64,000 nt of DNA. Source: Malus domestica (Eukaryota; Streptophyta; Magnoliopsida; Rosales; Rosaceae). Every line of letters starts with the position of its first letter. Position 1 is the first letter of the stretch. Shown here one piece after another: positions 1,749 through 59,678 of this stretch. The stretch lies in contig NC_091669.1 of NCBI RefSeq assembly GCF_042453785.1, positions 9,126,501 to 9,190,500 on the forward strand, given 5' to 3'. Under the pieces are notes generated by a model. It was not told the origin of the DNA, searched no databases, and worked only from the letters and a program-made list of their open reading frames with translations. A program made the position numbers and the translations under genes.

Positions 1749-2119
1749 TTATTAGGGTATTTTCAGTTAAGAAATTTTTTTTAGAAAAGTCCTTTCCATT
1801 AAATCTCTTTTTTTATGCACACCTTTGTTAATTTATATTCATTAGATTGGTTTTAATTTATTCAATTGGAATGCGTTGTGTATGTAGTTGGAAAAATGAG
1901 TTGTGAAAATCATATTTTCCAATTTGAATCTCTCTGTCCCTCCCATCTTCAATGAAAGATTTTCTAAACAATGGCAAATGCTTTTCCAACAAAAAAGAGA
2001 AAAAAAAGAAGAAAAAAGGCAAATGCATGCACTTCACGTAATGACTATTGAGATTTTACACAATATGTACCGATGATGTTGGAGCTTATAACTTTTTGCT
2101 TTCTGTATAGATTGAAATA

Positions 2120-2265
2120 GGGGTGTGCTATCCACACACCCCAAATTACTTCTCACACACCCTTGTTAATTTCTGTCCGTTGATCTTTTTTAATTCATCC
2201 GATCCGACGGCCGAAAATTAAAAAGGTGTGTGAGAAGTAAAATGAGGTGTGTAGATATCACACCA
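2120..2265. mobile_element. 146-bp MITE, family A (copy 1)
   Basis: Imperfect terminal inverted repeats of about 50 bases start GGGGTGTGCTATCC and contain ACTTCTCACACACC, mirrored near the right end. The flanks carry a candidate 9-base duplication (ATTGAAATA / TTTGAAATA, one mismatch, 2111-2119 and 2266-2274). A second member with a perfect 9-base duplication is at 44360-44517. The 9-base size points to a Mutator-like mobiliser, which is inference. Confidence 0.75.
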
Positions 2266-2620
2266 TTTGAAATATTATCGATTCTAAAGTTGAGGAGCAA
2301 CGTGGCAATAGCTTAGCTACAGTCAATTATTTGCCCCTTGATTTTGCTTCATTTACACAATGGCCCATCAAATCTGTGTTGGGCTAGGGTTTGGGCTCCC
2401 CCTTTCTCTTCATGAGCTTTGTGTTGGGTTTCGGTAAGAAGCTCGGCCCTCAGTCAGGCCCTTAATGATTTAATTACATTTCTGCCCATCAAAGATTACA
2501 ATCCGATATGGGGAGGATGGTGTATTTGGAAGGGCAATTTTGTCCTCTAGGTTTTGAGCGAATTAGGGGGTAGCCGGGTAGGCTTTCATTTGTTGTCGTT
2601 CAATGAGGGTTTCGGGGAGG

Positions 2621-2624
<4 letters not shown>

Positions 2625-2653
<29 letters not shown>
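2625..2653. repeat. (GA)n microsatellite
   Basis: About 14 consecutive GA units, followed by GGGA-rich sequence. In plants such tracts are common in 5' leaders and promoters. Here it lies at the head of the possible transcription unit described for 2600-6030. Confidence 0.9.
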
Positions 2654-2659
<6 letters not shown>

Positions 2660-5487
2660 AGGAAGGGAACAGAGACGGAGGTAGATGGCGATGGAAAGAG
2701 AGCGAGGGGGAGGGGTAGGGGTGATGGATTTCACAAGTGGGAGAGTGGGGATGGTCAGAGAAAACCATAGGGGTCGTCCGGATCTCGCGCTGCATGCTTG
2801 GATTTCCAAAGATAAGTTCGTTTTTTTTTTAATTCGATTCTTTACCATTAGCTTAGATTGTCATCATTTCTGCCTTTTTGTTGTGAATTATTTTCGAATT
2901 TTTTAGTACGTTAGGTCAGGTTTTGGGGGATTCCTCTCTCTGTTATGTCTGTTTGTTCTTTGTTCTAAGGTCAGTTGCTTTTTTTTTTTTTTTTGTGGGT
3001 TTTCAGTTTGTTAATCTGTGATTCTGTGTTTAGATTTTTCTTTCGTATATGATTAAATCGGTATTGGGTTTTGGTTGTTGAATTTTTTTTTTTGGGGAGA
3101 ATTTGTGTTTGGTTGTCGGATTTAATTTGGTTTTTGCTTTCAGGAAAAACTGGGGTTCGAATTTTGGGGTTTTTGATGTGGGTTTGGTTTCTTTTTCGTG
3201 GAATTTGTTGTATTTGTACCCTTTGGGTTTAGGTTTCATCAGATGGCGTTTGTAGTGTTTATATTGAACTGTTGACTCTTTTATTCTTTGTAGGTGAAAT
3301 TGAAGGTCAGTAATCTCTTAAATTGATGAGGGGGCTACAATTCGTGCAAGGAAAAAGCCAGAGATATGCTACTATTTTGGAAGAGAACAGATAAAGAGAT
3401 GGTATCCTTCCCTTCTCCTCTGGAAATGCATTGAGTACAAGAAGTGTGTGCTTGAAAATATAAAGATGCATGTCTTTTTATTTAAACTTAGTCCTCTCTA
3501 ATGATGTGCAGGAGGCCTCAAATTCATATCTTGAAATATTCATGTCTAAAGTTCTGTAGATCTTCTGTTTTGGGTTTTTTTTTCCCCTATTTTAGGCCAA
3601 ATAAAAAAATTAGTATGAAGTCTGGATAGTCATTTAGAATTTGGTGATATTGAGAGTTGATGAAGTAGGTGTTGAAGGAGGAGGGGATGGAGAAGGTGAA
3701 GGTACTGATGGAGTATGAAATTGGTGAATTTAAGTCTGAAGGCACTATCACCTTGATAATTTGCACCACTGATATGTAATAATTTTCATCAGAAGCAATA
3801 TGTCGAACTACTGCTGCATTGTCAGAATGAGCAGTTGAAACAATCGAGTTTATTTAATTATGATTTTCCTTATTAATTTGACCATGAAAATTGTCAATTA
3901 TTTTCTAAATATTATATGCTTTAAGTCATAAATTGAGCAGTTTGTGTTACCCCTGTTGTCATTTTCATGCTCATTATTTAATTGCGGACATTACACTAAA
4001 CGTGTTCAATCTGTTTCATAATTTCTGATAAGTTCATGCCCATTGAACGCATCAACTTATTATACATATATATATATATGTATATGTATATGATATATGT
4101 GACTGCTTTAATCAAGACTTATTGAATGAAGACAGCAGCAAGGAAATTTGAGCCTTGGCCTGTAGAGATACAATTTTGCAAGGAAGCTAAGCTAGGTACC
4201 TTCTAAACTTATTGGATGTGAAGATTTGTATGATCAAATTTGTGATTAATGTAATTGGATTCTATTAAAGTTTTCATGATTTTATAGAATTTTTGGTTTA
4301 AATTTGTGGGTTTTTTCATTTAAATTGTAGGGTTTGGAGAATTCTTAGTCAAATTTATGGGTTCTTTTGATGCGAATTTATGTGAGATTAATCAACTGCA
4401 ATGTCAGATATGATAATAGGTGGGCATGTTCATATGTTTTCCAATGTTGTTATTTACTCTCCTATCCAACTCTGAATGTTGAATTAGTCAACTATTAATG
4501 TCAGATTAATCAAAAGTTGGGCATCAGTTCATATGTTTTTCAATGTTTTATAAAAACGACGCAATTTTCACTTGGTTTTGAGTATGTGGTTTTTTAAGTA
4601 GAATAGTGGGAGATTCATTTGTAAAAATTCCTCAATGATCATCTTAAAGCGCTCTAATACATGCATAATCTGAATGAATATGTAAAGACTACTTGAGAAA
4701 CTAACCGTATACAAAATATGAATGATTTTATTTGTTTCTGTCTTTTTATGGGTTTGTCTACTATGGCTATTATGAGTTTCTGGTTTTCTTCATGTTTCAG
4801 GCAGTTGCTTCTTTAGGGACTTATGACATAGCATTAGAGATGGGAAAGAAGGTGATATGTCAAAGGTAATTTTCGTTATCCGTTCAATTTTGATGGTGGT
4901 CCTTATCTTAGTTGTGTTTATTTTCTATGTTGTATATATCCATGTACATATGCGTATGTGTGTGTGTAGCTCGATCATCTAACAAAAAACATGCTAAACT
5001 ATATAGAAAATGAAAATGCTAGGTATTAGTGTGTAAAGGTGTTGCCTTTTTATTATTTTGTAGTACACTACTTTTATTGTGCTAGGCACTATTCTCTATC
5101 ATTCAGAAGTAATTTGCACACAACAATTTAGAACGTTTTATGTGTAAATTTCCGAAATCATGGCACTATTGATGGTTGCTCTCTAAGCTGCCAAATTAGG
5201 TAAAAAAAAAAAAAATCTGAGCTGTGAATTTTTTGCTTGGTGTACTTGATGACATTACTAGGTTCATAGTGTATTGAACCTACAATGGTTGGTAGGCATT
5301 GCGGTGTACCATGTGCAGATGATTAGGGAGGGTGCAATACCAAGTGAAGAATTACACCTTGAGAAGGTAGACTTTCCTTCATTTAGATTTTGACCTCTAT
5401 GTCTGGAGAATAAGGTTTGTGATTTTGGTATGCATATGTGGTTCTTGGTTTTAAGAACAAAAATTACTTTTGTTTTGAAATTGCAAT

Positions 5488-15357: not shown

Positions 15358-15734
15358 GCTTACACCTTTTTTTATATCTAACGAAGGACATGACACAGGA
15401 TCGAGCACAATGGCGTTCTAAGATTCATATAGCCGATCCCACTCAGTGACTTGGATTTTCCAAGTCTCCAACCGAGAAGTTTTCCTCACTCGGGAAATTA
15501 AGGGAACACTACCCCAACCCACATGCTCCACTCAGAAAGCTTCAACATACAAGCTTCAACAAAAGAAAATTCAAAGACCTTAGCGAAGAAGGCTTTGGTG
15601 TATTTAACACAATACGTTGAAATGAAGGAAAGCTTATTTATTGATATCCCCGATAAGCTACAAATATGTACATATACATGAGTCAAAATAAACACACAAG
15701 AGGGAGCCTTCACAAAGGTTGCTTAGGAGAAGTC

Positions 15735-16382
15735 TCAGCTAGGTAGAGCCTCAGAAAGAGAAGGCACCGGAGGGGGATCATTTGGAGCCTCAGTACTGGA
15801 CAGAACCCTAGAAGGAGGAGGCATCAGAGGTTGATCATTCGGAGCTTCATTACGCGGTACAGCCCCAGAAGACGAAGGCAATAAATGCCTTTGGAACAAA
15901 CCCACAAATCTCTGATGATCAAGTAAAACCTGACCATCAGTTTCCTTCATTTGGTCAAGCTTCCTCTTCATGTTTGTAGCATAGTCATGTGCGAGCCGGT
16001 GCAACTGTTTATTCTCATGCTTGAGCCCTCTAATCTCCTGTTTGAGACTCATCACTTCAGCCGCCAATGATTCAACTTGGCGGGTTCGAGCAAATAGGCG
16101 TTGGGCCATATTAGACACAGAACCTGCACACTGAACACTGAGAGCCAGCGAATCCTTAACAGCTAACTCATCAGACCGTTTGGAAAGTAGTCTGTTATCT
16201 TTGGGAGTGAGAAGGTTCCTGGCCACCACCGCAGCGGTCATATCATTCTTCATCACGGAATCCCCAACGGTAAGAGGACCAGTAGGGGAGACGAAGGATG
16301 GGCGCCATATGTTGTCTGGAGAAGGCGGGGCTGCCTCTTCAACAAGGTTCAAGTCAAAACGACGGTCGGAGGGGCCAGACAT
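15735..16382 (-). CDS. Passenger-encoded 215-aa orphan protein with coiled coil
   Basis: The ATG at 16382 begins MSGPSDRRFDLNLVEE. Residues about 95-150 form a heptad-like charged helix (KQEIRGLKHENKQLHRL), followed by a Pro/Ser-rich tail with a repeated EAPNDxPxxP pattern. The function is unknown. It is probably a structural, gag-like or captured protein of a non-autonomous repeat, but no zinc knuckle, protease or polymerase accompanies it. Upstream on the minus strand is a TATA-like TTTTTATAG (about 16493-16501), and downstream an AATAAATAAG-type signal (about 15634-15643), so it has the look of a complete Pol II unit. It runs antisense to the enclosing LINE. Copy 2 of the element has the same gene with a nonsense codon. 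DLNL near the N-terminus resembles an EAR repression motif, perhaps by chance. Confidence 0.7.
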   Translation of the reverse strand: MSGPSDRRFDLNLVEEAAPPSPDNIWRPSFVSPTGPLTVGDSVMKNDMTAAVVARNLLTPKDNRLLSKRSDELAVKDSLALSVQCAGSVSNMAQRLFARTRQVESLAAEVMSLKQEIRGLKHENKQLHRLAHDYATNMKRKLDQMKETDGQVLLDHQRFVGLFQRHLLPSSSGAVPRNEAPNDQPLMPPPSRVLSSTEAPNDPPPVPSLSEALPS

Positions 16383-16499
16383 TTTCAAAGGTGTTGAAGA
16401 GAGAAGAGGTCGGACAAATCAAGATCTTAGAAGTGCAAGAATGAAGCTTCTACTGGTGGAGATTCAAGTGTGCTTTGGAACTTAAAGCCAGCCCCTATA

Positions 16500-18470
16500 A
16501 AAATCTGCACTCGACGGAGCTTCAGAAATCGAAGAGGCGCCAGCTCAGAAATCGAAGAGGCGTTTGCTTTCTCAAAAGTTGGGCTGCTCAAAGACCACGA
16601 AGGCCGATCTCAGAAATCGAAGAGGCGCTCGCTTTCTCAAAAGCTGGGCTCCCCAGAGACCACGAGGGCCGATCTCAGAAATCGAAGAGGCAGGCACCTA
16701 CTTTTCCAGCCTTGTCAGCACCTGTCACACGCACACTCAGCTTTGCGGAAATTATGGGCATTCTGTCGAAGACTTCTGGGGAAGTAGAAAACACATGAAT
16801 CTTACTGTTCAATCACCCACTTCCCACACGCAACAATAGCTCATGGGTACCACAGATAATTTTGCCAAAGTTCTCTGCCAAAGTTGAGCACGTGAAGCTT
16901 GCAGCTCCCACTACATCGCTCTGACCAAGAAGGGTAAAAGAATAGCAAAGAAACAGCACTAACAAAGTTTAGACCCATAAATTTTGAAGGTCTAGCTACC
17001 ATATTATTACCCACAAGGGTAAAGGAACAGTACCACTGCTGGATAATTGGAAAGTCCCTGTGTGTCAACCTCTGTGCTTCGTGGCAAGGTAGACTAGCAA
17101 ACATGCCCAACCTTTACTCACATTCGAGAAAACACTCCCAATAAGATTGCTTGCTCCAAAATCGAAGAGGCACCGTCCTCCGAATCTCGAGAGCCAGACT
17201 CCCAACATGACTACTTTCTTAAAAATCGAAGAGAGGGTAAAGGAACAGTACCATTGCTGGATAATTGGAAAGTCCCTGTGTGTCAACCTCTGTGCTTCGT
17301 GGCAAGGTAGACTAGCAAACATGCCCAACCTTTACTCACATTCGAGAAAACACTCCCAACAAGATTGCTTGCTCCAAAATCGAAGAGGCACCGCCCTCCG
17401 AATCTCGAGAGCCAGACTCTCAACATGATTACTTTCTCAAAAATCGAAGAGACACTACTCCCCGAATCTTCGAGAGCCAAACCCCCAGCATGATTGCTTT
17501 CTCAAAAATCGATGAGGCATCGTTCTCCGAATCAATCGAAGAGGGGCTCGCTTTCTCAAAAGCTGGGCTGCTCAGAGACCACGAGGGCCGATCTCAGAAA
17601 TCGAAGAGGCACCTACTTTTCTAGCCTTGTCAGCACCTGTCACACGCACACTCAGCTTTGCAGAAATTATGGGCATTCTGTCGAAGACTTTTGGTGAAGT
17701 AGAAAGCACATGAATCTTACTGTTCAATCACCCACTTCCCACACGCAACAATAGCTCATGGGTACCACAGATAACTTTGCCAAAGTTCTCTGCCAAAGTT
17801 GAGCACGTGAAGCTTGCAGCTCCCACTACATCGCTCTGACCAAGAAAGGTAAAAGAATAGCAAAGAAACACCACTAACAAAGTTTAGACACATAAATTTT
17901 GAAGGTCTAGCTACCATATTATTACCCACAAGGGTAAAGGAACAGTACCACTGCTGGATAATTGGAAAGTCCCTGTGTGTCAACCTCTGTGCTTCGTGGC
18001 AAGGTAGACTAGCAAACATGCCCAACCTTTACTCACATTCGAGAAAACACTCCCAACAAGATTGCTTGCTCCAAAATCGAAGAGGCACCGTCCTCCGAAT
18101 CTCGAGAGCCAGACTCCCAACATGACTACTTTCTCAAAAGCGAAGAGAGGGTAAAGGAACAGTACCATTGCTGGATAATTGGAAAGTCCCTGTGTGTCAA
18201 CCTTTGTGCTTCGTGGCAAGGTAGACTAGCAAACATGCCCAACCTTTACTCACATTCGAGACAACACTCCCAACAGGATTGCTTGCCCCAAAATCGAAGA
18301 GGCACCGCCCTCCGAATCTCGAGAGCCAGACTCCCAACATGATTACTTCCTCAAAAATCGAAGAGACACTGCTCTCCGAATCTCGAGAGCCAGACCCCCA
18401 GCATGATTGCTTTCTCAAAAATCGAAGAGGCATCGTTCTCCGAATCTCGAGAGCCAGATACCACAGACCA
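16500..18470. repeat. Nested tandem repeats in the passenger
   Basis: The core AATCGAAGAGGC occurs about 16 times. It sits in three levels of repeat: units of about 64 bases (CTCAGAAATCGAAGAGG plus a CTTTCTCAAAAG part), units of about 216 bases starting AGGGTAAAGGAACAGTACCA (about 17021, 17237, 17936 and 18151), and a whole block of about 915 bases present twice (16841-17110 matches 17756-18025 almost perfectly). Copy 2 (37600-38650) has the large block once. The array lies upstream of the orphan gene's TATA-like box. It generates many overlapping short open frames that I consider spurious. Confidence 0.85.
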
Positions 18471-19851
18471 CTTTTTCAAAGTGCTCTGACAGAGTTAAAA
18501 CATGTGAAACTGGCAGCTCCCACTACCGTGCTATGACCAAGCAGGGTAAAGGAATAGCATTACTACTTGTTGTTAGGGAGACTCCTATATATGTCGACCT
18601 CCATCCCCAACGGACAGGCAGACCTGCAAAAATGCTCAACCCTTCATCATATCTGAGAGGGCACTCCCAACGAAGCCTTTCGAAATATTCAGCTTTCTTT
18701 CCCCCCGATAATACCTCTGCAAACAAGCTATACTAGAGCAAGAATATCTCATATCATCAGGGTTAAAAGCAAGAGTATCCCATATCATGCTTTTTCCCTG
18801 TCTTTTCCTTTGGCCTTGTTTTTACCTGCAAGACAAGGAGAAAGAGAGGAATCAGTCAGCACTTGGAATCAAGCTTCCAGCCAGGAACTGACTGCCTGGA
18901 ACCCCTTACCTGATTACTTACCTGGCATTGCTCTCGAGTACTCATCTTCAACATCTTATGTTTCCAGGGAAGATTCCGCATCTGCTTGAGGAACAGATAG
19001 GGCAAGTGCGAAGGATACAAGGAAGCATGTGGAGACAAGCGTAACAACACACGTGCCGATACATCCATTACTCTGTCAAAAGCAAAAGTATCACATATCA
19101 GCAGGGTGGAACGTACTCTAGATTTGATGGACTTGTTTTGACCCTCAAATTCTTCAGTCGGCCTTATACTCTGGAGGAAACCAGAAAACCCTCCAGCTTA
19201 GTTCAAGAATAAGCCTGTGGAAAGTTACTTCTTCAAAAGCAAAAGTATCTCATATCATCTCTTCTCATTTTTCTTCTCTTTATCCTTCATGCTGCTGCAA
19301 GATGGGGAGAAGGTGAACAATCAGTCGGAGCTCTGATTGCTTACCTTGTCTGTCACCTCTTTCAGCAGACCCCCTAGCTCGGCGACTTGGGGACTCCTAC
19401 TACATGGTTTGTATCGCGCTTGACCAAGCCTGAAACTACAAGTAAGCTTCAAGTGAAATTGATACATTACCTTGTGCATCTCCACCAGTTGAAGATACCA
19501 CCCCTGGATGGAGGAAGAGTACTTCCAGAGAAGATGCCACATCTACCTATGAGACAGATAAGGCAAGTCAAGACGACACCACACTCCGATACTTAGAAGT
19601 TTCGTGATTACGAGATCATTCTCCCACAATATTTCCTAATGTCATTTTTACTAAATCATTCACTTGTACTCACTAAAGGAGAGCTTGAACCTATGTACTT
19701 GTGTAAACCCTTCACAATTAATGAGAACTCTTCTATTCCGTGGACGTAGCCAATCTGGGTGAACCACGTACATCTTGTGTTTGCTTTTCTATCTCTATCC
19801 ATTTATATACTTATCCACACTAATGACCGGAGCAATCTAGCGAAGATCACA

Positions 19852-20445
19852 AAAAGCGACCGTTTTCGCTACCTAGGATCTATCTTGCAAGAGAACGGAG
19901 AATTAGATGGAGATCTCAAACATGGAATACGAGCTGGATGGATGAAGTGTAAGAGTGCATCCGGCGTGTTGTGTGACCGTCGTAGGCCACTGAAGCTCAA
20001 GGGAAAATTTTATAGGACGGCAATAAGGCCAGCAATGTTGTATGGCACAGAATGTTGGGCGGTGAAGCATCAACACGTACACAAAATGGGTGTAGCGGAG
20101 ATGAGGATGCTTCGTGGGATGTGTGGGCACACGAGAAAGGATAAGATTGGGAATGAGGATATCCGAGGTAAAGTAGGAGTAGCCGAAATTGTAGGAAAGA
20201 TGAGAGAAAATCGGCTCCGGTGATTTGGACATGTGCAAAGAAGGCCGACTGACGCTCCGGTTCGAAGATGTGACTACGGGACAGAGGTTCAGGGCCGAAG
20301 GGGTAGAGGAAGACCTAGGAAAACTTTGGAAGAGACTCTAAGAAAAGACTTAGAGTACTTGGATCTAACGGAGGACATGACACAAAACCGAGCGCAATGG
20401 CGTTCTAGGATTCATATAGCCGACCCCACTTAGTGGGAAAAGGCT
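19852..20445 (+). pseudogene. Second LINE 3' module (RTE RT C-terminus), copy 1
   Basis: The reading frame corresponds to the C-terminal part of the RTE polyprotein: [19 protein letters not shown], then a Cys/His region ([19 protein letters not shown]), [19 protein letters not shown] and the basic [19 protein letters not shown], ending before CCCACTTAGTGGG. It is interrupted by TGA at 20221-20223, where the intact first modules encode Trp in RWFGH. It begins abruptly at AAAAAGCGACCG and ends in (TTG)n. It supplies the 3' end of the composite element. Confidence 0.85.
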
Positions 20446-20740
20446 TTGTTGTTGTTGTTGTTGTTGTTGTTGCTTACACCTTTTTTTATCGCTTGGAAGA
20501 TATTGTTGTTTTTCCTCGGCAATACAATATACACTCACACACTTATGCAGCACATACACTCACACATGCAGTACACACATTGTTGTTTTTCCTTATTTGA
20601 TTATTGGGATGCCAAACTTTAAGAATTTGTGTTTAATTTGATTCTTTGGTATACTCAGTTAATTAGCTAAGAATTGGTTTACATTTAGATTATATATATA
20701 TGATTTTGGACTGTAGTTTTTCTCTAACTGAATTGGTTTA

Positions 20741-33256: not shown

Positions 33257-35592
33257 CTAAGTTCGGCGTCCCCTCGTCGCCGTTGCGGTTGTTGGCTTCC
33301 TCCTCTTGCTGAATGTCTCCACAAACCATTCATGCTTCTTGTCTGCCAATGTGTTTCCAGCAAGCACTCCCACTATTAGTCCGCTAATAACTCCCGGCAA
33401 GACTACATACCAGTCAAACTCAAATGGAAATCCAGCCTCTTCATCTTCTTCAAAGCTTGATGGTGGCGGCAGCCTCGAGCTCTGAGAACCCTCACATTTC
33501 TTGGACAAAGGCTTTCCACACAGACCTGAGTTTCCTTGGTATGAATCTTCTAGGAATGTACCAAATTGTTGGCCAAGTGGTATAGGCCCCCAAAGATGGT
33601 TATGCGACACATTGAAGTACTCAAGGAAAGTGAGTTGTGCCAAACTACTGGGGATCCTTCCTAAGAGCTTGTTTTGAGAGAGATCCAACGATTCAAGAGC
33701 GGTCAAGTTCCCTAGAGATGAAGGGATGTGACCAGAGAGAGCGTTGTTGGAGAGGTTTAGAAAATGAAGTGCTCTTAGACTCCCAATGATACTTGCTGGA
33801 ATCTCTCCTTCAAATCTATTACTTGAGAAATCTATGAGTCTCAGAACATAGGGGGTCTCATCATATGTCAACTCAACACCTTTTCCGAGAATTATCATCG
33901 GGTACGAAATTTGATTGTAAAACCCATATTTATTTGTGCTGAAGTTTGATGAGACTTCAAAGTACCAGCTTCCCTTGTTTGCGACAACATATTTCATGAA
34001 ATTCCAGTTCTCCATATACTTAGAAGGCAACATACCTGAAAACAGATTGTTGGATAAATCAATGATGCATAAGTTTGGGAACTCATGATTTGTTGGAGGC
34101 TTCCCAATTATCCCATGAAATGAATTTGACCGCAAAATGAGACCCCTCAATACTGGAAGTACCCCTAACCAAGAAGGGAAGATGTCACTCATCTGATTGT
34201 TGCCAATGTCAAGAAACTCTAACCGAGTGCAATCGGCCATTGATCTTGGTAGCTTCCCCTGTAACCGATTGTGACCCAACAGAACCAATTTGAAACTATT
34301 TCTGTTAGCACAAAATGGAGGAATATCACCGTGGAAAGAATTATACATCAAGATCAATATTTCCAAGCTGCTGGACTTCCCCAAACACCGTGGAAGCATG
34401 CCACTCAGGCTATTTATGGCCAAATCAAGAACTTGAAGATAATTCAAGTCGCAGAACAGTGGTGAAACTTCTCCACTATAATTATTGTTGCCGACCAAGT
34501 AAGACATGATAGATTGTGGTGGAATTGGCAATGACCCTTGTAACCGATTATTCCGAAGATTAAAATACTGCAGATTTTTCCATGGAAGCATGACTGGATT
34601 TTCCTCAAAGCCTGTTAAGAAGTTCATATCGAGGTTCAGATTGACCAAAGTTTCTCTAGTTGCATTCCAGACCCATTTTGGTATTTGGCCATGAATATTG
34701 TTACTAGAAAGGTCTAGGGCTTCCAATTCGTATTGATTTTTCAAAAATTCTGGAAACTCTGTCAAGTTGCATTCAGCCAACTCTAGAATTTCGAACTTTG
34801 GAAAAGTAGCACTCAAACCAGATTTGACACTTACGGATAACTTGTTGAACGATAAACCAACTTTCTTCAACTTTTTGAGGTTGGAAAACTCATCAAACTC
34901 AACTAATCCACTCAAATTATTATCGGAAAGGCCAAGAGATTCAAGATTGCTGAGGTGGAAAAGCGATTTAGGAATTGCTCCTTGCAAATCGTTGAAGGCG
35001 AGCTGTAGAAAAGTTAATTGGGTCAAGTCTACTGCAAGCCAAGATGGGATTTCACCAGTTATTAAATTGCCACGCAAGTTTAGATATGCAAGTTGGGTCA
35101 GGTTAGCCACAAAACGTGGGAAATTTCCCCTTAAGTTAATTTGCCGAAGATTCAAGTAGTTGAGCTTGGTTAGTTTTCCAAAACAAGACAAGGAATCAGG
35201 AACTAAGAATGGGCCAGCGGAAACGTTATAAAATGAATACATCCTAAGGAAACTGAGCTGCGTAAGGTTTCCGAATGAAGATGGAACATGGGAATCAAAA
35301 CCACAGAATGAGATATCAAAGTAATTTAAGGAATGAAGGTTTCCGATAGAACTAGGAAGTTCACCAGAGAAATTTGTCCCTGAAACAACCAATATTTTGA
35401 GGGAATTGGTCCTGTTAAAATTAGGAAAAGAACCATTTAGGTCTATGTTTGATTGCAATCTAAGCTCCTCTATGTTTGGTAGGTGGAAAATGCCTACTGG
35501 GAATTCCTCATACAACCCACAGTTGCTTAGATCGAGAGATGTGAGAAAAGATGCATTGACCAAGATATCAGGCACAGTGGAGTATATGCCCA
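33257..35592 (-). pseudogene. Split receptor-like protein gene, 3' part
   Basis: This covers the LRRs from GIYSTVPDILVNASFLTS to the C-terminal cap, acidic stretch, transmembrane helix and basic tail, matching residues about 208-986 of the intact RLP at 7504-10464 at high identity. No internal stop or shift is seen. It is cut from its 5' part (42929-43563) by the 7.3-kb composite LINE. The apparent run of leucines before GIYST comes from the LINE (TTG)n tail, not the gene. Before the insertion the paralogue would have been full length, so the LINE is the visible inactivating event. Confidence 0.9.
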
Positions 35593-35612
35593 ACAACAAC
35601 AACAACAACAAA

Positions 35613-36197
35613 GCCTTTTCCCACTAAGTGGGGTCGGCTATATGAATCCTAGAACGCCATTGCGCTCGGTTTTGTGTCATGCCCTCCGTTAGATCCAAGT
35701 ACTCTAAGTCTTTTCTTAGAGTCTCTTCCAAAGTTTTCCTAGGTCTTCCTCTACCCCTTCGGCCCTGAACCTCTGTCCCGTAGTCACATCTTCGAACCGG
35801 AGCGTCAGTCGGCCTTCTTTGCACATGTCCAAATCACCAGAGCCGATTTTCTCTCATCTTTCCTACAATTTCGGCTACTCCTACTTTACCTCGGATATCC
35901 TCATTCCCAATCTTATCCTTTCTCGTGTGCCCACACATCCCACGAAGCATCCTCATCTCCGCTACACCCATTTTGTGTACGTGTTGATGCTTCACCACCC
36001 AACATTCTCTGCCATACAACATCACTGGCCTTATTGCCGTCCTATAAAATTTTCCCTTGAGCTTCAGTGGCCTACGACGGTCACACAACACGCCGGATGC
36101 ACTCTTTCCATCCAGCTCGTATTCTATGGTTGAGATCTCCATCTAATTCTCCGTTCTCTTGCAAGATAGATCCTAGGTAACGAAAACGGTCGCTTTT
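35613..36197 (-). pseudogene. Second LINE 3' module, copy 2
   Basis: C-terminal RTE polyprotein segment as in copy 1, with the same TGA at the RWFGH Trp (frame ends MRENRLW then stop). It includes [19 protein letters not shown] and ends at the (TTG)n tail. It begins at the same LINE position (AAAAAGCGACCG) as in copies 1 and 3. Confidence 0.83.
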
Positions 36198-39100
36198 TGT
36201 GATCTTCGCTAGATTGCTCCGGTCATTAGTGTGGATAAGTATATAAATGGATAGAGATAGGAAAGCAAACACAAGATGTACGTGGTTCACCCAGATTGGC
36301 TACGTCCACGGAATAGAAGAGTTCTCATTAATTGTGAAGGGTTTACACAAGTACATAGGTTCAAGCTCTCATTTAGTGAGTACGAGTGAATGATTTAGTA
36401 CAAATGACATTAGGAAATATTGTGGGAGAATGATCTCGTAATCACGAAACTTCTAAGTATCGGAGTGTGGTGTCGTCTTGACTTGCCTTATCTGTCTCAT
36501 AGGTAGATGTGGCATCTTCTCTGGAAGTACTCTTCCTCCATCCATGGGTGGTATCTTTAACTGGTGGAGATGCACAAGGTAATGTATCAATTTCACTTGA
36601 AGCTTACTTGTAGTTTCAGGCTTGGTCAAGCGCGATACAAACCATGTAGTAGGAGTCCCCCAAGTCGTCGAGCTAGGGGGTCTGCTGAAAGAGGTGACAG
36701 ACAAGGTAAGCAATCAGAGCTCCGACTGATTGTTCACCTTCTCCCCATCTTGCAGCAGCATGAAGGATAAAGAGAAGAAAAATGAGAAGAGATGATATGA
36801 GATACTTTTGCTTTTGAAGAAGTAACTTTCCACAGGCTTATTCTTGAACTGAGCTGGAGGGTTTTCTGGTTTCCTCCAGAGTATAAGGCCGACTAAAGAA
36901 TTTGAGGGTCAAAACAAGTCCATCAAATCTAGAGTACGTTCCACCCTGCTGATATGGGATACTTTTGCTTTTGACAGAGTAATGGATGTATCGGCACGTG
37001 TGCTGTTACGCTTGTCTCCACATGCTTCCTTGTATCCTTCGCACTTGCCCTATCTGTTCCTCAAGCAGATGCGGAATCTTCCCTGGAAACATAAGATGAT
37101 GAAGATGAGTACTCGAGAGCAATGTCAGGTAAGTAATCAGGTAAGGGGTTCCAGGCAGTCAGTTCCTGGCTGGAAGCTTGATTCCAAGTGCTGACTGATT
37201 GCTCTCTTTCTCCTTGTCTTGCAGGTAAAAACAAGGCCAAAAGAAAAAACAGGGAAAAAGCATGATATGGGATACTCTTGCTTTTAACCCTGATGATATG
37301 AGATATTCTTGCTCTAGTATAGCTTGTTTGCAGAGGTATTATCGGGGGGAAAGAAAGCTGAATATTTCGAAAGGCTTTGTTGGGAGTGCCCTCTCAGATA
37401 TGATGAAGGGTTGAGCATTTTTGCAGGTCTGCCTGTCCGTTGGGGATGGAGGTCGACATATATAGGAGTCTCCCTAACAACAAGTAGTAATGCTATTCAT
37501 TTACCCTGCTTGGTCATAGCACGGTAGTGGGAGCTGCCAGTTTCACATGTTTTAACTCTGTCAGAGCACTTTGAAAAAGTGGTCTGTGGTATCTGGCTCT
37601 CGAGATTCGGAGAACGATGCCTCTTCGATTTTTGAGAAAGCAATCATGCTGGGGGTCTGACTCTCGAGATTCGGAGAGCAGTGTCTCTTCGATTTTTGAG
37701 GAAGTAATCATGTTGGGAGTCTGGCTCTCGAGATTCGGAAGGCGGTGCCTCTTCGATTTTGGAGCAAGCAATCTTGTTGGGAGTGTTGTCTCGAATGTGA
37801 GTAAAGGTTGGACATGTTTGCTAGTCTACCTTGCCACGAAGCACAAAGGTTGACACACAGGGACTTTCCAATTATCCAGCAATGGTACTGTTCCTTTACC
37901 CTCTCTTCGATTTTGAGAAAGTAGTCATGTTGGGAGTCTGGCTCTCGAGATTCGGAGGACGGTGCCTCTTCGATTTTGGAGCAAGCAATCTTGTTGGGAC
38001 TGTTTTCTCGAATGTGAGTAAAGGTTGGGCATGTTTGCTAGTCTACCTTGCCACGAAGCACAGAGGTTGACACACAGGGACTTTCCAATTATCCAGCAGT
38101 GGTACTGTTCCTTTACCCTTGTGGGTAATAATATGGTAGCTAGACCTTCAAAATTTATGTGTCTAAACTTTGTTAGTGCTGTTTCTTTGCTATTCTTTTA
38201 CCTTTCTTGGTCAGAGCGATGTAGTGGGAGCTGCAAGCTTCACGTGCTCAACTTTGGCAGAGAACTTTGGCAAAGTGATCTGTGGTACCCATGAGTTATT
38301 GTTGCATGTGGGAAGTGGGTGATTGAACAGTAAGATTCATGTGCTTTCTACTTCACCAGAAGTCTTCGACAAAATGCCCATAATTTCTGCAAAGCTGAGT
38401 GTGCGTGTGACAGGTGCTGACAAGGCTAGAAAAGTAGGTGCCTCTTCGATTTCTGAGATCGGCCCTCGTGGTCTCTGAGCAGCCCAGCTTTTGAGAAAGC
38501 GAGCGCCTCTTCGATTTCTGAGATCGGCCTTCGTGGTCTTTGAGCAGCCCAACTTTTGAGAAAGCAAACGGCTCTTCGGTTTCTGAGATCAACCCTCGTG
38601 ATCTCTAAGCAGCCCAACTTTTGAGAAAGCAAACGCCTCTTCGATTTCTGAGCAGGCGCCTCTTTGATTTCTGAAGCTCCGTCGAGTGCAGATTTTTATA
38701 GAGGCTGGCATTAAGTTCCAAAGCACACTTGAATCTCCACCAGTAGAAGCTTCATTCTTGCACTTCTAAGATCTTGATTTGTCCGACCTCTTCTCTCTTC
38801 AACACCTTTGAAAATGTCTGGCCCCTCCGACCGTCGTTTTGACTTGAACCTTGTTGAAGAGGCAGCCCCGCCTTCTCCAGACAACATATGGCGCCCATCC
38901 TTCGTCTCCCCAACTGGTCCTCTTACCGTTGGGGATTCCGTGATGAAGAATGATATGACCGCTGCGGTGGTGGCCAGGAACCTTCTCACTCCCAAAGATA
39001 ACAGACTACTTTCCAAACGGTCTGATGAGTTAGCTGTTAAGGATTCGCTGGCTCTCAGTGTTCAGTGTGCAGGTTCTGTGTCTAATATGGCCCAACGCCT

Positions 39101-39750
39101 ATTTGCTCGAACCCGCCAAGTTGAATCATTGGCGGCTGAAGTGATGAGTCTCAAACAGGAGATTAGAGGGCTCAAGCATGAGAATAAACAGTTGCACCGG
39201 CTCGCACATGACTATGCTACAAACATGAAGAGGAAGCTTGACCAGATGAAGGAAACTGATGGTCAGGTTTTACTTGATCATCAGAGATTTGTGGGTTTGT
39301 TCTAAAGGCATTTATTGCCTTCGTCTTCTGGGGCTGTACCGCGTAATGAAGCTCCAAATGATCAACCTCTGATGCCTCCTCCTTCTAGGGTTCTGTCCAG
39401 TACTGAGGCTCCAAATGATCCCCCTCCGGTGCCTTCTCTTTCTGGGGCTCTACCGACTGCTGAGACTTCTCCTAAGCAACCTTTGTGAAGGCTCTCTCTT
39501 GTGTGTTTATTTTGACTCATGTATATGTACATATTTGTAGCTTATCGGGGATATCAATAAATAAGCTTTCCTTCATTTCAACGTATTGTGTTAAATACAC
39601 CAAAGCCTTCTTCGCTAAGTTCTTTGAATTTTCTTTTGTTGAAGCTTGTATGTTGAAGCTTTCTGAGTGGAGCATGTAGGTTGGGGTAGTGTTCCCTTAA
39701 TTTCCCGAGTGAGGAAAACTTCTTGGTTGGAGACTTGGAAAATCCAAGTC
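36198..39750. mobile_element. Passenger segment of composite copy 2
   Basis: About 3.55 kb, reverse-complementary to 15449-19851 and largely collinear with it, but with one instead of two copies of the 915-bp block. One end carries an LTR-like sequence (TTCCGTGGACGTAGCC and GTGAACCACGTACATC on the minus strand, about 36240-36320), and the other end the orphan gene. Only one LTR-like end is present, so this is not an intact LTR element. Confidence 0.8.
38814..39488 (+). pseudogene. Orphan passenger gene, nonsense-bearing copy
   Basis: Same protein as 15735-16382, starting at the ATG at 38814. A CAA-to-TAA change at 39303-39305 ends the frame after FVGLF (163 aa). Homology continues in frame through the Pro/Ser-rich tail to a stop at 39486-39488, which in this copy ends TAETSPKQPL. 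A TATA-like TTTTTATAGAGG lies at about 38693-38704, and an AATAAATAAGC polyadenylation-type region at about 39556-39566. The gene is antisense to its LINE host. Confidence 0.75.
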
Positions 39751-42700
39751 ACTGAGTGGGATCGGCTATATGAATCTTAGAACGCCATTGTGCTCGATCC
39801 TGTGTCATGTCCTTCGTTAGATCCAAGTACTCTAAGTCTTTTCTTAGAGTCTCTTCCAAAGTTTTCCTAGGTCTTCCTCTACCCCTTCGGCCCTGAACCT
39901 CTGTCCCATAGTCGCATCTTCTAATCGGAGCGTCAGTAGGCCTTCTTTGCACATGTCCAAACCACCGTAACCGATTTTCTCTCATCTTTCCTTCAATTTC
40001 GGCTACTCCTACTTTACCCCGGATATCCTCATTCCTAATCTTATCCTTTCTCGTGTGCCCACACATCCAACGAAGCATCCTCATCTCCGCTACACCCATT
40101 TTGTGTACGTGTTGATGTTTCACCGCCCAACATTCTGTGCCATACAGCATCGCCGGCCTTATTGCCGTCCTATAAAATTTTCCCTTGAGCTTCAGTGGCA
40201 TACGGCGGTCACACAACACGCCGGATGCACTCTTCCACTTCATCCATCCAGCTTGTATTCTATGGTTGAGATCTCCATCTAATTCTCCGTTCTTTTGCAA
40301 GATAGATCCTAGGTAACGAAAACGGTCGCTCTTTGGTATTTCTTGATCTCCGATCCTCACCCCTAACTCGTTTTGGCCTCCATTTGCACTGAACTTGCAC
40401 TTCATATATTCTGTCTTTGATCGGCTTAGGCGAAGACCTTTAGATTCCAACACTTCTCTCCAAAGGTTAAGCTTTGCATTTACCTCTTCCTGAGTTTCAT
40501 CTATCAACACTATATCGTCTGCGAAAAGCATACACCAAGGAATATCATCTTGAATATGTCCTGTTAACTCATCCATTACCAACGCAAAAAGGTAAGGACT
40601 TAAGAATGACCCTTGATGTAATCCTACAGTTATGGGAAAGCTTTCGGTTTGTCCTTCATGAGTTCTTACGGCAGTCTTTGCTCCTTCATACATATCCTTT
40701 ATAGCTTGGATATATGCTACTCGTACTCCTTTCTTCTCTAAAATCCTCCAAAGAATGTCTCTTGGGACCCTATCATACGCTTTTTCCAAATCTATAAAGA
40801 CCATGTGTAAATCCTTTTTCCCATCTCTATATCTTTCCATCAATCTTCATAAGAGATAGATTGCCTCCATGGTTGAGCGCCCTGGCATGAATCCGAATTG
40901 GTTGTCCGAAACCCGTGTCTCTTGCCTCAATCTATGCTCAATGACTCTCTCCCAGAGCTTCATTGTATGACTCATTAGCTTAATACCCCTATAGTTCATG
41001 CAATTTTGTACGTCGCCCTTATTCTTGTAGATAGGCACCAAAGTGCTCGTTCGCCACTCATTTGGCATCTTCTTCGTTTTCAAAATCCTATTGAAAAGGT
41101 CAGTGAGCCATGTTATACCTGTCTCTCCCAAAACTTTCCACACTTCGATTGGTATATCGTCTGGGCCTATTGCTTTTCTATGCTTCATCTTCTTCAAAGC
41201 TACAACCACTTCTTCCTTCCGGATTCGACGATAAAAGGAGTAGTTTCTACACTCTTCTGAGTTACTCAACTCCCCTAAAGAAGCACTCCTTTCATGTCCT
41301 TCATTGAAAAGATTATGAAAATAACCTCTCCATCTGTCTTTAACCGCGTTCTCTGTAGCAAGAACCTTTCCATCCTCATCCTTGATGCACCTCACTTGGT
41401 TTAGGTCCCTTGTCTTCTTTTCCCTTGCTCTAGCTAGTTTATAGATATCCAACTCTCCTTCTTTGGTATCTAGTCGTTTATACATATCGTCGTAAGCCGC
41501 TAACTTAGCTTCTCTGACAGCTTTCTTCGCCTCTTGCTTCGCTTTTCTATACCTTTCACCATTTTCATCGGTCCTCTCCTTGTATAAGGCTTTACAACAT
41601 TCCTTCTTAGCCTTCACCTTTGTTTGTACCTCCTCATTCCACCACCAAGATTCCTTTTGGTGTGGGGCAAAGCCCTTGGACTCTCCTAATACCTCTTTTG
41701 CTACTTTTCGGATACAACTAGCCATGGAATCCCACATTTGGCTAGCTTCCCCCTCTCTATCCCACGCACATTGGGTGATTACCTTCTCTTTGAAAATGGC
41801 TTGTTTTTCTTCTTTTAGATTCCACCATCTAGTTCTTGGGCACTTCCAAGTCTTGTTCTTTTGTCTTACTCTTTTGATATGTACATCCATCACCAACAAG
41901 CGATGTTGATTAGCCACGCTATCTCCTGGTATAACTTTGCAATCCTTACAAGTTATACGATCCCCTTTCCTCATTAGAAGAAAATCTATTTGTGTTTTTG
42001 ACGACCCACTCTTGTAGGTGATCACATGTTCTTCTCTCTTCTTAAAGAAGGTGTTGGCTAAGAAGAGATCATATGCCATTGCAAAATCCAAGATAGCTTC
42101 CCCATCCTCGTTTCTCTCCCCAAAACCATGGCCACCATGAAAACCTCCATAGTTGCCTGTCTCCCTGCCCACGTGTCCATTTAAATCTCCTCCTATAAAT
42201 AACTTCTCCGTCTGAGCAATTCCTTGCACCAAGTCTCCAAGATCTTCCCAAAATTTCTCCTTCGAACTCGTATCCAACCCTACTTGAGGTGCGTACGCAC
42301 TAATCACATTGATAAGTTCTTGTCCTATTACAATCTTGATTGCCATGATTCTATCTCCTACCCTCTTGACATCTACAACATCTTGTACCAAGGTCTTGTC
42401 CACGATGATGCCAACACCGTTTCTCGTTCTATTTGTGCCCGAATACCAAAGTTTAAACCCTGAGTTTTCTAGATCCTTTGCCTTACTACCAACCCACTTA
42501 GTTTCTTGTAGGCACATAATATTTATCCTTCTCCTCACCATAACTTCCACTACTTCCATAGATTTTCCCGTTAAGGTTCCTATATTCCACGTTCCTAAAC
42601 GCATTTTGCTCTCTTGAACTCTACCCTTCTGTCCTAGCTTCTTCACCCTCCCCCGTCTAATAGGATCAAAGTACTTCTTTTGTGTGTCCCGGGTAAAGTT

Positions 42701-42907
42701 GATAGGAGCATATGCTCCCAAACAACTTTGAGTGGAGTCGTTCGAAAAGAAGTTTCTATGGCCCCCTTGCTCATTTAACACTGCATCCGGGTGCCGATGG
42801 AGATACAGCGACCCTTGCTCACTTATCACTGTGCTCGGGCCACACAGCGCGCCACTTACGGGTGACGCCCTAGCTTTAGCGCGATTTTGTTCTAGATTCA
42901 TTTTCAT
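39749..42907 (-). pseudogene. RTE-type LINE polyprotein (endonuclease + reverse transcriptase), one nonsense codon
   Basis: One frame of about 1052 codons from the ATG at 42907. The AP-endonuclease domain shows LGTWNIGTLTG, LQETKW, GGDLNGHVG and QIDFLL (about residues 100-330). A basic linker follows, then the reverse transcriptase with [18 protein letters not shown] and FADDIVLID. The C-terminal part has [10 protein letters not shown] and [22 protein letters not shown]-to-TGA change just after EAIYLL (about 40847-40849) splits it into 686 and 364 codons. The enzyme pair nicks target DNA and primes cDNA there. The order and motifs match the RTE clade, whose members end in short microsatellite tails. 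Confidence 0.9.
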
Positions 42908-42928
42908 AAGGATTCGACGTGATCATGG

Positions 42929-54425: not shown

Positions 54426-55467
54426 TTTATCTGCAGAAGTTCCCATGCTTGTGGAGATTACATTGAAAGAAGTTTCCCTTTTTTGCAGGAATCAAGTATG
54501 GTTTTTTTATATTATATTCTGTATCTACGTTAGTATCAAGCGCTTGTTCCATATCTTCTTGTCTAATTTTGTTTCTTAATTTTCTTGATCAGATGTGAAG
54601 AATCAAAGAAGAATCCAACTTCCAAATCATCGTCCCACTCAACTGCTGGTACACCAACTAACATTCTTGAGGCAGTTTTTAGCTCTTGAGCAATCTCATT
54701 TTTGTCATATGTGATTACACATGACTGGAAATGTCTGATCTTCTGTTTTGCATCAGATGTTGCCAAAGGGTTGGTCCCAGGTGCTGTAAAGAAGGCATCC
54801 AATAAAAAGCAGATTAAGGACGAGACTAAAGTCAGTAAAGTGGAAGGTATGATTTTATGGTTACTTTCTGTTTCACGATTATTGCATATGTAAACGTACG
54901 CATATCTACTTTTACATGTCTTTAGAATTTCAGTGACTTTCTTTAAGCATTGGTAATGTATCTCTGTGAACTTTATTGCCCAGAAGTTTTTTCCACACAG
55001 ATTATTTGTTGTCACTTAAATATTCATCTTATACATGATATATATTTATATACTTATGTATTTATCATGTATTTGGTTTAAAGCTCAATTTTATGTTATG
55101 TTATCAGCAGAAACTCAGGTTGACCGAAGCGTTGGAGAAAAAAAAACTAAGGAGTTTAGTGGAAGAGGGACCTTCTATGACAGAACTAAGTCGCTATAAT
55201 TTCAAGAGGCAAGAGTTTGAAATTGAATATGACAATGATGCTGAGCAGATTCTGGCAGATATGGAATTCAAGGATACTGACACTAATGCTGACCGTGAAT
55301 TGACTCTACGAGTTTTGCATGTCTACGCAAACCGGTATTTATATGGCTACTATTATAGATTAAGGCTGATGGGTCTATTTTCAAATTCAAAGCAATTATG
55401 AGGAGGGGAACAGTTTAAAGTTTTAACAAAATGAAGTGATTATTTTCTTTCAACAACAACAACAACA

Positions 55468-56064
55468 AAGCCTTTTCCCACTAAGTGGGGTCGGCTATAT
55501 GAATCCTAGAACGCCATTGCGCTCGGTTTTGTGTCATGTCCTCCGTTAGATCCAAGTACTCTAAGTCTTTTCTTAGAGTCTCTTCCAATGTTTTCCTAGG
55601 TCTTCCTCAACCCCTTCGGCCCTGAAACTCTGTCCAGTAGTGACATCTTCGAACCGGAGCGTCAGTAGGCCTTCTTTGCACATGTCCAAATCACCGGAAC
55701 CGATTTTCTCTCATCTTTCCTTCAATTTCGGCTACTCCTACTTTACCTCGGATATCCTCATTCCCAATCTTATCCTTTCTCGTGTGCCCACACATCCCAC
55801 GAAGCATCCTCATCTCTGCCACACCCATTTTTTGTACGTGTTGATGCTTCACCGCCCAACATTCTGTGTCATACAACATCGCTGGCCTTATTGCCGTCCT
55901 ATAAAATTTTCCCTTGAGCTTCAGTGACCTATGACGGTCACACAACACGCCGGATGCACTCTTACACTTCATCCATCCAGCTTGTATTCTATGGTTGAGA
56001 TCTCCATCTAATTCTCCGTTCTCTTGCACGATAGATCTTAGGTAGCGAAAACGGTCGCTTTTTG
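55468..56064 (-). pseudogene. Second LINE 3' module, copy 3
   Basis: Same start (AAAAAGCGACCG) and same TGA in place of the RWFGH Trp (frame ends MRENRFR then stop) as in copies 1 and 2. It ends with (TTG)n. Confidence 0.83.
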
Positions 56065-56274
56065 TGATCTTCGCTAGATTGCTCCGGTCATTAGTATGGA
56101 TAAGTATATAAATGGATAGAGATAGGAAAGCGAACACAAGATGTACGTGGTTCACCCAGATTGGCTACGTCCACGGAATAAAGGAGTTCTCATTAATTGT
56201 GAAGGGTTTACACAAGTACATAGGTTCAAGCTCTCCTTTAGTGAGTACAAGTGAATGATTTAGTACAAAAGACA

Positions 56275-59200
56275 TTAGGAAATATTAGAACGCCATTGTG
56301 CTCGGTCTTGTGTCATGTCCTTCGTTAGATCCAAGTACTCTAAGTCTTTTCTTAGAGTCTCTTCCAAAGTTTTCCTAGGTCTTCCTCTACCCCTTCGGCC
56401 CTGAACCTCTGTCTCATAGTCGCATCTTCTAATCGGAGCGTCAGTAGGCCTTCTTTGCACATGTCCAAACCACCGTAACCGATTTTCTCTCATCTTTCCT
56501 TCAATTTCGGCTACTCCTACTTTACCCCGTATATCCTCATTCCTAATCTTATCCTTTCTCGTGTGCCCACACATCCAACGAAGCATCCTCATCTCCGCTA
56601 CACCCATTTTGTGTACGTGTTGATGCTTCACCGCCCAACATTCTGTGCCATACAGCATCACCAGCCTTATTGCCGTCCTATAAAATTTTGCCTTGAGCTT
56701 CAGTGGCATACGACGGTCACACAACACGCCGGATGCACTCTTCCACTTCATCCATCCAGCTTGTATTCTATGGTTGAGATCTCTATCTAATTCTCCATTC
56801 TTTTGCAAGATAGATCCTAGGTAACGAAAACGGTCGCTCTTTGGTATTTCTTGATCTCCGATCCTCACCCCTAACTCGTTTTGACCTCCATTTGCACTGA
56901 ACTTGCACTCCATATATTCTGTCTTTGATCGGCCTAGGCGAAGACCTTTAGATTCCAACTCTTCTCTCCAAAGGTTAAGCTTTGCATTTACCCCTTCATG
57001 AGTTTCATCTATCAACACTATATCGTCTGCGAAAAGCATACACCAAGGAATATCATCTTGAATATGTCCTGTTAACTCATCCATTACCAACGCAAAAAGA
57101 TAAGGACTTAAGGATGAGCCTTGATGTAATCCTACAGTTATGGGAAAGCTTTCAGTTTGTCCTTCATGAGTTCTTACGACAGTCTTTGCTCCTTCATACA
57201 TATCCTTTATAGCTTGGATATATGCTACTCGTACTCCTTTCTTTTCTAAAATCCTCCAAAGAATGTCTTTTGGGACCCTATTATACGCTTTCTCCAAATC
57301 TATAAAGATCATGTGTAAATCCTTTTTCCCATCTCTATATCTTTCCATCAATGTTCGTAAGAGATAGATTGCCTCCATGGTTGAGCGCCCTGGCATGAAC
57401 CCGAATTGGTTGTCCGAAACCCGTGTCTCTTGCCTCAATCTATGCTCAATGACTCTCTCCCAGAGCTTCATTGTATGACTCATTAGCTTAATACCCCTAT
57501 AGTTCATGCAATTTTGTACGTCGCCCTTATTCTTGTAGATAGGCACCAAAGTGCTCGTTCGCCACTCATTTGGCATCTTATTCGTTTTCAAAATCCTATT
57601 GAAAAGGTCAGTGAGCCATGTTATACCTGTCTCTCCCAAAACTTTCCACACTTCGATTGGTATATCGTCTGGGCCTATTGCTTTTCTATTCTTCATCTTC
57701 TTCAAAGCTACAACCACTTCTTCCTTCCGGATTCGACGATAAAAAGAGTAGTTTCTACACTCTTCTGAGTTACTCAACTCCCCTAAAGAATCACTCTTTT
57801 CATGTCATTCATTGAAAAGATTATGAAAATAACCTCTCCATCTGTCTTTAACCGCGTTCTCTGTAGCAAGAACCTTTCCATCCTCATCATTGATGCACCT
57901 CACTTGGTTTAGGTCCCTTGTCTTCTTTTCCCTTGCTCTAGCTAGTTTATAGATATCCAACTCTCCTTCTTTGGTATCTAGTCGTTTATACATATCGTCG
58001 TAAGCCGCTAACTTAGCTTCTCTCACAGCTTTCTTCGCCTCTTGCTTCGCTTTTCTATACCTTTCATCATTTTCATCAGTCCTATCCTTGTATAAGGCTT
58101 TACAACATTCCTTCTTAGCCTTCACCTTTGTTTGTACCTCCTCATTCCACCACCAAGATTCCTTTTGGTGTGGGGCAAAGCCCTTGGACTCTCCTAATAC
58201 CTCTTTTGCTACTTTTCGGATACAATTAGCCATGGAATCCCACATTTGGCTAGCTTTCCCATCTCTATCCCACACACACTGGGTGATTACTTTCTCTTTG
58301 AAAATGGCTTGTTTTTCTTCTTTTAGATTCCACCATCTAGTCCTTGGACACTTCCAAGTCTTGTTCTTTTGTCTCACTCTTTTGATATGTACATCCATCA
58401 CCAACAAGCGATGTTGATTAGCCACGCTCTCTCCTGGTATAACTTTGCAATCCTTACAAGTTATACGATCCCCTTTCCTCATTAGAAGAAAATCTATTTG
58501 TGTTTTTGACGACCCACTCTTGTAGGTGATCACATGTTCTTCTCTCTTCTTAAAGAAGGTGTTGGCTAAAAAGAGATCATATGTCATTGCAAAATCCAAG
58601 ATAGCTTCCCCATCCTCGTTTCTCTCCCCAAAACCATGGCCACCATGAAAACCTCCATAGTTGTCTGTCTCCCTGCCCACGTGTCCATTTAAATCTCCTC
58701 CTATAAATAACTTCTCCGTCTGAGCAATTCCTTGCACCAAGTCTCCAAGGTCTTCCCAAAATTTCTCCTTCGAACTCGTATCCAACCCTACTTGAGGTGC
58801 GTACGCACTAATCACATTGATAAGTTCTTGTCCTATTACAATCTTGATTGCCATGATTCTATCTCCTACCCTCTTGACATCTACAACATCTTGTGTCAAG
58901 GTCTTGTCCACGATGATGCCAACACCGTTTCTCGTTCTATTTGTGCCCGAATACCAAAGTTTAAATCCTGAGTTTTCTAGATCCTTTGCCTTACTACCAA
59001 CCCACTTAGTTTCTTCTAGGCACATAATATTTATCCTTCTCCTCACCATAACTTCCACTACTTCCATAGATTTTCCCGTTAAGGTTCCTATATTCCACGT
59101 TCCTAAACGCATTTTGCTCTCTTGAACTCTACCCTTCTGTCCTAGCTTCTTCACCCTCCCCCGTCTAATAGGATCAAAGTACTTCTTTTGTGTGTCCCGT

Positions 59201-59415
59201 GTAAAGTTGATAGGAGCATATGCTCCCAAACAACTTTGAGTGGAGTCGTTCAAAAAGAAGTTTCTATGGCCCCCTTGCTCATTTAACACTGCATCCGGGT
59301 GCCGATGGAGATACAGCGACCCTTGCTCACTTATCACTGTGCTCGGGCCACACAGCGCGCCACTTACGGGTGACGCCCTAGCTTTAGCGCAATTTTGTTC
59401 TGAATTCATTTTCAT
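56275..59415 (-). pseudogene. RTE-type LINE polyprotein, one nonsense codon (copy 3)
   Basis: It has the same domain order as the copy in the split RLP: endonuclease LGTWNIGTLTG and GGDLNGHVG, reverse transcriptase [18 protein letters not shown] and FADDIVLID, and a basic C-terminus. A GGA-to-TGA change after FHNLFNE (about 57805) splits it into 536 and 500 codons. The CGA that became TGA in the other copy is intact here, so the two copies were broken independently. The frame runs a few codons into passenger sequence at its end (WRSNIS) because of the internal deletion. Confidence 0.9.
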
Positions 59416-59678
59416 AAGGATTCGACGTGATCATGGAGTGCCGGCTGTCGACTACCTGACGCCCTTCCCCTCCTCCTTTATCCGGGCTTGGGACCGGCAA
59501 TGTAAGTACATAGGCGGAGTTGAAGTGATTATTTTCTTTACGTTCAGAAAATTTATACAGAACTTTATTTCGTTGTCATAATTATTGCAAATGCTAGGCA
59601 GCAAATGTCACAAAAACTTTCATACAAGTAATGCTGTTATCTCATCCACTAAAACGAGTTAGCCTTGCTGTCTGATTT

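Follow-up and report, generated by a model that had tools for sequence, protein, structure and literature searches.

LINEs of the plant RTE clade possess a single endonuclease–reverse transcriptase (RT) frame and a (TTG)n tail, generate target duplications and undergo 5' truncation; such tails are reported in PMC3747384. LINE-1 and SVA are known for 3' transduction, in which downstream DNA is copied with the element through read-through. The SVA and LAVA elements of apes are VNTR composites drawn from several sources, with internal tandem repeats of variable length; they are moved by LINE machinery and are non-autonomous. Tripartite LINE chimeras, in which three fused pieces are flanked by target duplications, are ascribed to double template switching and known as single cases; one tripartite copy in Magnaporthe and a few in mammals are listed in PMC2104539. 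In apple, three papers describe HODOR, a high-copy repeat of LTR type (PMC6901071, PMC13334179, PMC8558331), which is 9,716 bp long and concentrated at putative centromeres (PMC13334179); according to the same paper, LINEs make up 4.1% of a Golden Delicious genome (PMC13334179).

The apple locus studied here belongs, very probably, to a composite and probably autonomous RTE-type LINE family that copies a LINE, an LTR segment and a second LINE 3' end as a unit. Its structure, common 5' end, target duplications, dispersal and intact frames are read from the genome sequence; we infer that the composite is transcribed as one RNA and that its protein acts on that RNA. The composite has the frame, tail, duplications and truncation of plant RTE-clade LINEs, but differs from them in that an LTR segment of 3.4–4.5 kb and a duplicate of the 3' end are fixed parts of it. 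As in LINE-1 and SVA transduction, downstream DNA would be copied with the element through read-through, whereas the apple family, present in many copies, has made the cargo a stable component, terminated by a second LINE 3' end. Multiple sources, variable tandem repeats and movement by LINE machinery recall SVA and LAVA; unlike these, the apple composite keeps its own LINE frame with an RT. It has three fused pieces and target duplications, as do the tripartite chimeras, but is an amplified family. HODOR and the composite are both high-copy apple retroelements, HODOR being an LTR element, and the two are compared here by description. No such composite family was found in the literature searched, which included the accessible parts of PMC11197308 and PMC6445120, with Repbase and most subscription papers outside its scope.

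LINE chimeras and transductions are usually reported as single events. The apple LINE seems to have absorbed about 4 kb of unrelated LTR with its frame kept, and has about 2,500 detectable joins. It makes testable the length of RNA that a plant LINE can copy, whether recognition of the 3' end needs just the last few hundred bases or more, and whether LTR sequence aids the success of a LINE. It also suggests that similarity-based repeat annotation may break units of this kind apart, into separate LINE and LTR entries.

The window is a stretch of 64,000 nucleotides, 9126501-9190500 of contig C9, from an apple genome of which 651,096,769 bp in 19 contigs were searched. It contains three copies of the composite. 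The first is truncated at its 5' end and is laid out as follows:

15358..15375, plus strand: left target-site duplication, the exact 18-mer GCTTACACCTTTTTTTAT
15376..15448, plus strand: 3' end of the first LINE module, 73 bp, 5'-truncated, with the join as in full-length copies
15449..19849, plus strand: passenger of about 4.4 kb, most likely an internal sense-strand LTR-like segment from comparison with donors
15735..16388, minus strand: antisense open frame of 217 aa in the passenger, without clear constraint
about 19850-20471, plus strand: second LINE 3' end, 586 bp, plus GGAAAAGGCTTTG(TTG)n tail, from sequence
20472..20489, plus strand: right target-site duplication, the same 18-mer GCTTACACCTTTTTTTAT

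This is the arrangement claimed in an earlier note on the same DNA, in which a perfect 18-bp duplication brackets a LINE piece, a passenger and a further LINE 3' module that finishes in a TTG tail. On the plus strand of the window the 18-mer occurs in just these two places. The passenger of copy 1 contains an internal duplication of about 0.9 kb as well as shorter tandem repeats.

The other two copies lie on the minus strand:

42928 to 35593, minus strand: copy 2 as a whole, excluding its duplication, from sequence
39750..42928, minus strand: first LINE module of copy 2, near full length, with endonuclease and RT, frame broken, from sequence
36200..39749, minus strand: passenger of copy 2, from sequence
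35593..36199, minus strand: second LINE 3' end and tail of copy 2, from sequence
35586..35592 and 42929-42935, no strand: target duplication of copy 2, ATGCCCA, 7 bp, exact match
56281..59520, minus strand: first LINE module of copy 3 with complete 5' end, aligned to bases 1-3240 of the full-length copy L018, the aligner's last base lying inside the target duplication
56065..56286, minus strand: passenger remnant of copy 3, the last ~222 bp, from sequence, the remainder deleted
55451..56064, minus strand: second LINE 3' end and tail of copy 3, from sequence
55432..55450 and 59521-59539, no strand: target duplication of copy 3, 19 bp, exact match

The earlier note held that these copies have the same order as copy 1 and duplications of their own. 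The order and the 7- and 19-bp duplications are present, but copy 3 has lost nearly all of its passenger. The note's description of the first LINE as a stub applies to copy 1, as a truncation, but not to composites generally, the LINE being almost complete in copies 2 and 3. The 5' end of copy 3 is that common to full-length members of the family. Around 56286 of the window a deletion in copy 3 fuses the first LINE module, about 27 bp short of its usual end, to the final ~222 bp of the passenger.

The first 543 bp of copy 1 were used as a query for further copies, and the best 40 of 1,712 candidates were scored. These comprise copy 1 and 39 others at 98–99% identity, on 15 of the 19 contigs. 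Twenty of the 39 other places were read at 10 kb each; LINE and passenger are present in all 20, and the tail in 19. The exception, L020, was considered as a copy without a tail and rejected, its passenger being interrupted at position 1402 by other DNA. This intruding DNA begins TGATGCGAAAATTACTTGACAC and is LTR-like by eye. Among the 20 copies the first LINE module ranges from 160 bp to full length, and seven begin at one identical base, AACTCCGCCTATGTCTTAC. The common 5' start of full-length composites reads AACTCCGCC..., and L018, a natural full-length copy, measures 8,113 bp to the first TTG. A fixed 5' end deduced from 39 of the 40 matches beginning at query base 19 was wrong, since the query opens with 18 bases of target duplication that are private to copy 1.

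Genome-wide counts are 2,479 for the composite-specific 5' junction (at most 3 mismatches in 29) and 2,490 for the 3' junction (at most 2 mismatches in 21), with 0 for the reversed control in each case. The junctions recur across the genome with distinct flanks, as the earlier note had proposed to check. A larger count of 4,306 5' junctions was discarded in favour of 2,479: it mixes composites and donor LTRs because the first 10 bases of its pattern are common to the donor LTR family, with one mismatch in all for most of the aligned donors. A search for the passenger start (7 sites) used the same donor-shared bases, and is no proof of that start's absence elsewhere. A LINE site lying 586 bp ahead of the junction has 2,984 matches genome-wide (at most 3 mismatches in 25). 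On contig C1 the 5' junction follows 567–582 bp after 48 of the 74 exact sites, a tally made with 78 exact 5' junctions and ten from the 4,306-count list; most exact sites of this LINE on that contig are therefore composites. If each of the ~2,479 were whole from junction to tail, composites would fill an estimated 10 Mb or more. Mean pairwise divergence among the copies read is 0.7–1.5% by module, a figure which overstates the youth of the family because the copies were chosen by their likeness to copy 1.

Target duplications were examined in 22 copies, 19 of those read (L020 being left out) and the three in the window. Eleven of the 22 are bordered by duplications of 10 bp or longer, compared with 0 of 462 mispaired-end controls. 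Under the same strict rule the remaining 11 copies have end matches of just 2–7 bp; one of them, L028, has a 13-bp duplication by a separate reading which the stricter rule missed. A 7-bp match is reached in 10 of the 462 controls, so that the duplication of copy 2 is weak on its own; the insertion is supported, however, by its place inside an LRR gene whose paralogue in the window reads straight through that point. Its common 5' end, 5' truncation, TTG tail and duplications show that the composite inserts whole, as a LINE-type unit.

The copies might instead be segmental duplicates of one locus, or separate elements nested by chance. Nested repeats are common in plant genomes, and copy 2 sits within an LRR receptor-like gene (pieces 33257-35611 and 42904-43563, minus strand) with a close paralogue in the window. 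This paralogue, at 7504-10464, is unbroken across the insertion point of copy 2, whose flanks match it at 9438-9834 and 9830-10201. The spread of the 40 scored matches over 15 of 19 contigs speaks against either explanation, as do the 20 copies read: their flanks and truncation points differ and their duplications of at least 10 bp are private to each, while their joins agree. Duplication of one locus, named beforehand as a refutation, is contradicted by these observations, and the probability left to it or to chance nesting is almost negligible. The distinct target duplications support the original claim of one composite unit that kept moving.

The LINE frame encodes 1,052 aa and, in all six full-length copies analysed (L028, L017 and L020 being left out), opens at base 106 of the unit; none of the six has a separate ORF1. 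Both of the 1,052-aa frames scanned with Pfam contain Exo_endo_phos and RVT_1, giving an N-terminal endonuclease and a C-terminal RT. The closest relatives of the protein among solved structures are led by the L1 ORF2 and R2 proteins. Its frame layout and tail indicate that the composite LINE is probably of RTE type.

The composite could be non-autonomous in practice and depend on simple LINEs of its own type to mobilise it in trans. For recognition, the protein of a related LINE might need no more than the second 3' end, and the composite junction is missing at 26 of the 74 exact LINE sites on contig C1. Against this, the 1,052-aa frame is intact in five of the six full-length and six of ten near-full-length copies, and the frame shows 35 synonymous variants against 26.2 expected, figures given without a significance test. 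Mobilisation in trans is considered quite improbable.

The passenger is 3.4–4.5 kb long in family members, and on contig C1 the members of 32 exactly matching junction pairs are 3,430–4,471 bp apart, from 5' to 3' junction; its internal tandem repeats vary in length. A relative of the passenger without a LINE is found in L036. A query of 561 bp from L036, 246 bp of it upstream of the passenger start, was used to find donors, and the best 40 of 3,102 candidates were scored. All 40, L036 itself and 39 others at 85–90%, extend into upstream sequence which is absent from the composite. The donor L043+L047 matches passenger positions 1-488 and 4164-4401 and continues past the composite 3' join as GGTCACAAACTTAACAC...TGCATCA, ending in CA; at its other end a polypurine tract is followed by TGAACACATTAG, with a TG start. 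L036 has a similar polypurine tract followed by TAAACACATTAG (TAAACAC), its opposite end not having been located. Because of this upstream sequence in donors, the polypurine tract with TG and the CA end, the passenger was most likely taken, in sense orientation, from the interior of a long LTR belonging to another family. There are no same-strand donor pairs up to 20 kb apart among the best 40 of the 3,102 candidates, so that the LTR status of the donor rests on its ends rather than on paired LTRs.

The passenger had been proposed to carry its own gene. The antisense frame measures 224 aa in each of the six full-length copies analysed and is unbroken in 16 of the 22 copies. Its variants number 23 nonsynonymous, 15 synonymous and 5 stop, against 30.4, 11.2 and 1.4 expected (without a significance test), and a Pfam scan of the window copy's antisense frame gave no match. 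With no clear constraint at the protein level and 5 stops against 1.4, a gene-bearing cassette was rejected, and the passenger appears instead as an internal LTR-like piece.

In the proposed mechanism, a single RNA would start at the LINE 5' end, encode the 1,052-aa endonuclease/RT protein, cross the 3.4–4.5-kb LTR segment and finish in the second LINE 3' end with its (TTG)n tail. The protein would begin target-primed reverse transcription at this second 3' end, and 5' truncation during copying would yield the shorter composites. As to how the chimera arose, the first step may have been insertion of a 5'-truncated LINE close to an LTR end. Another LINE would then have become attached upstream, where CCACT(T/C)AGTG matches; it would have lost its TAG stop, final bases and tail there, and the join would have supplied a TGA stop instead. 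Read-through across both LINE pieces would have made the first composite RNA.

At the 5' join CCACT and then AGTG are shared, 9 of 10 bases, rising to 10 of 10 had the LINE carried a C; the 3' join has the short identity CAAA. The stop codon TGA of the LINE is formed at the 5' join (CAG TG|A), and the second LINE module closes its frame with TAG at the equivalent place. Seven of ten aligned donors read CGACCACTCAGTGACTTGG at the position of the join, so that both the C and the TGA are probably derived from the donor. The simple LINE end with CAG, CCACTCAGTGGGAAAAGGCTTTG, is rare, with 10 exact occurrences in the genome. In six copies compared, the end of the first module and the tail module differ by 5–7%, and therefore two LINE sources met. 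Passenger ends and tail co-vary among copies (r 0.44–0.68, reached in 0 of 999 permutations each), in favour of one unit. The distances of the first module follow neither passenger nor tail (r −0.14 to 0.14), which counts against it and for which low diversity or exchange may account.

The same moving family could have been founded in one event by a double template switch, from a LINE RNA to an LTR-containing RNA at CAAA and from there to a second LINE RNA at CCACT(C)AGTG. Magnaporthe and mouse provide precedents of three-part chimeras flanked by target duplications (PMC2104539). Both joins in apple show short identity, and the 5–7% between modules, with its two LINE sources, fits this route as well. 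However, the passenger seems to span U3 into a U5-like LTR end (R being unmapped), whereas normal LTR-element RNA does not hold U3 to U5 in one piece, and the 3' join resembles an ordinary 5'-truncated LINE insertion. The double switch is thus a tentative alternative of limited probability, and an origin by two LINE pieces in one LTR followed by read-through is favoured over it as the somewhat likelier course. The read-through origin put forward in the earlier note is consistent with these observations but stands short of proof, since a genome-wide search for the founder-locus pattern, by exact matches, gave 0 and the double switch competes with it.

On contig C1 an exact 3' junction (21-base pattern) lies 0.2–6 kb downstream of 27 of the 78 exact 5' junctions; 51 of the 78 are without one. 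Because just 27 are paired, the 3' end of some composites may be altered or of another kind. Decay of the two CpG sites that the 3' join contains, a different 3' end or nested insertions could each explain the missing exact junctions; the inner 17 bases of the pattern are present in 17 of the 19 tail-bearing copies read. Six same-strand pairs of LINE 3' sites on this contig are 4,227–4,404 bp apart and without the known exact 5' junction:

1817227/1821454, contig C1, same strand: LINE 3'-site pair 1
2847802/2852175, contig C1, same strand: LINE 3'-site pair 2
15412643/15417047, contig C1, same strand: LINE 3'-site pair 3
21336969/21341308, contig C1, same strand: LINE 3'-site pair 4
22608579/22612916, contig C1, same strand: LINE 3'-site pair 5
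23285079/23289418, contig C1, same strand: LINE 3'-site pair 6

These pairs are possibly a second type of composite. A repeated origin of LINE–passenger–LINE units in this genome is rather unlikely; if it happened, carriage of a segment between two LINE ends would be a recurrent and selectively favoured habit of this LINE, the LTR segment perhaps providing promoter or RNA-stability signals.

Outside the three copies, bases 33-107 of the LINE 5' end recur without a mismatch at 1678-1752 of the window, as an isolated 75-bp piece; part of this piece is repeated just upstream.
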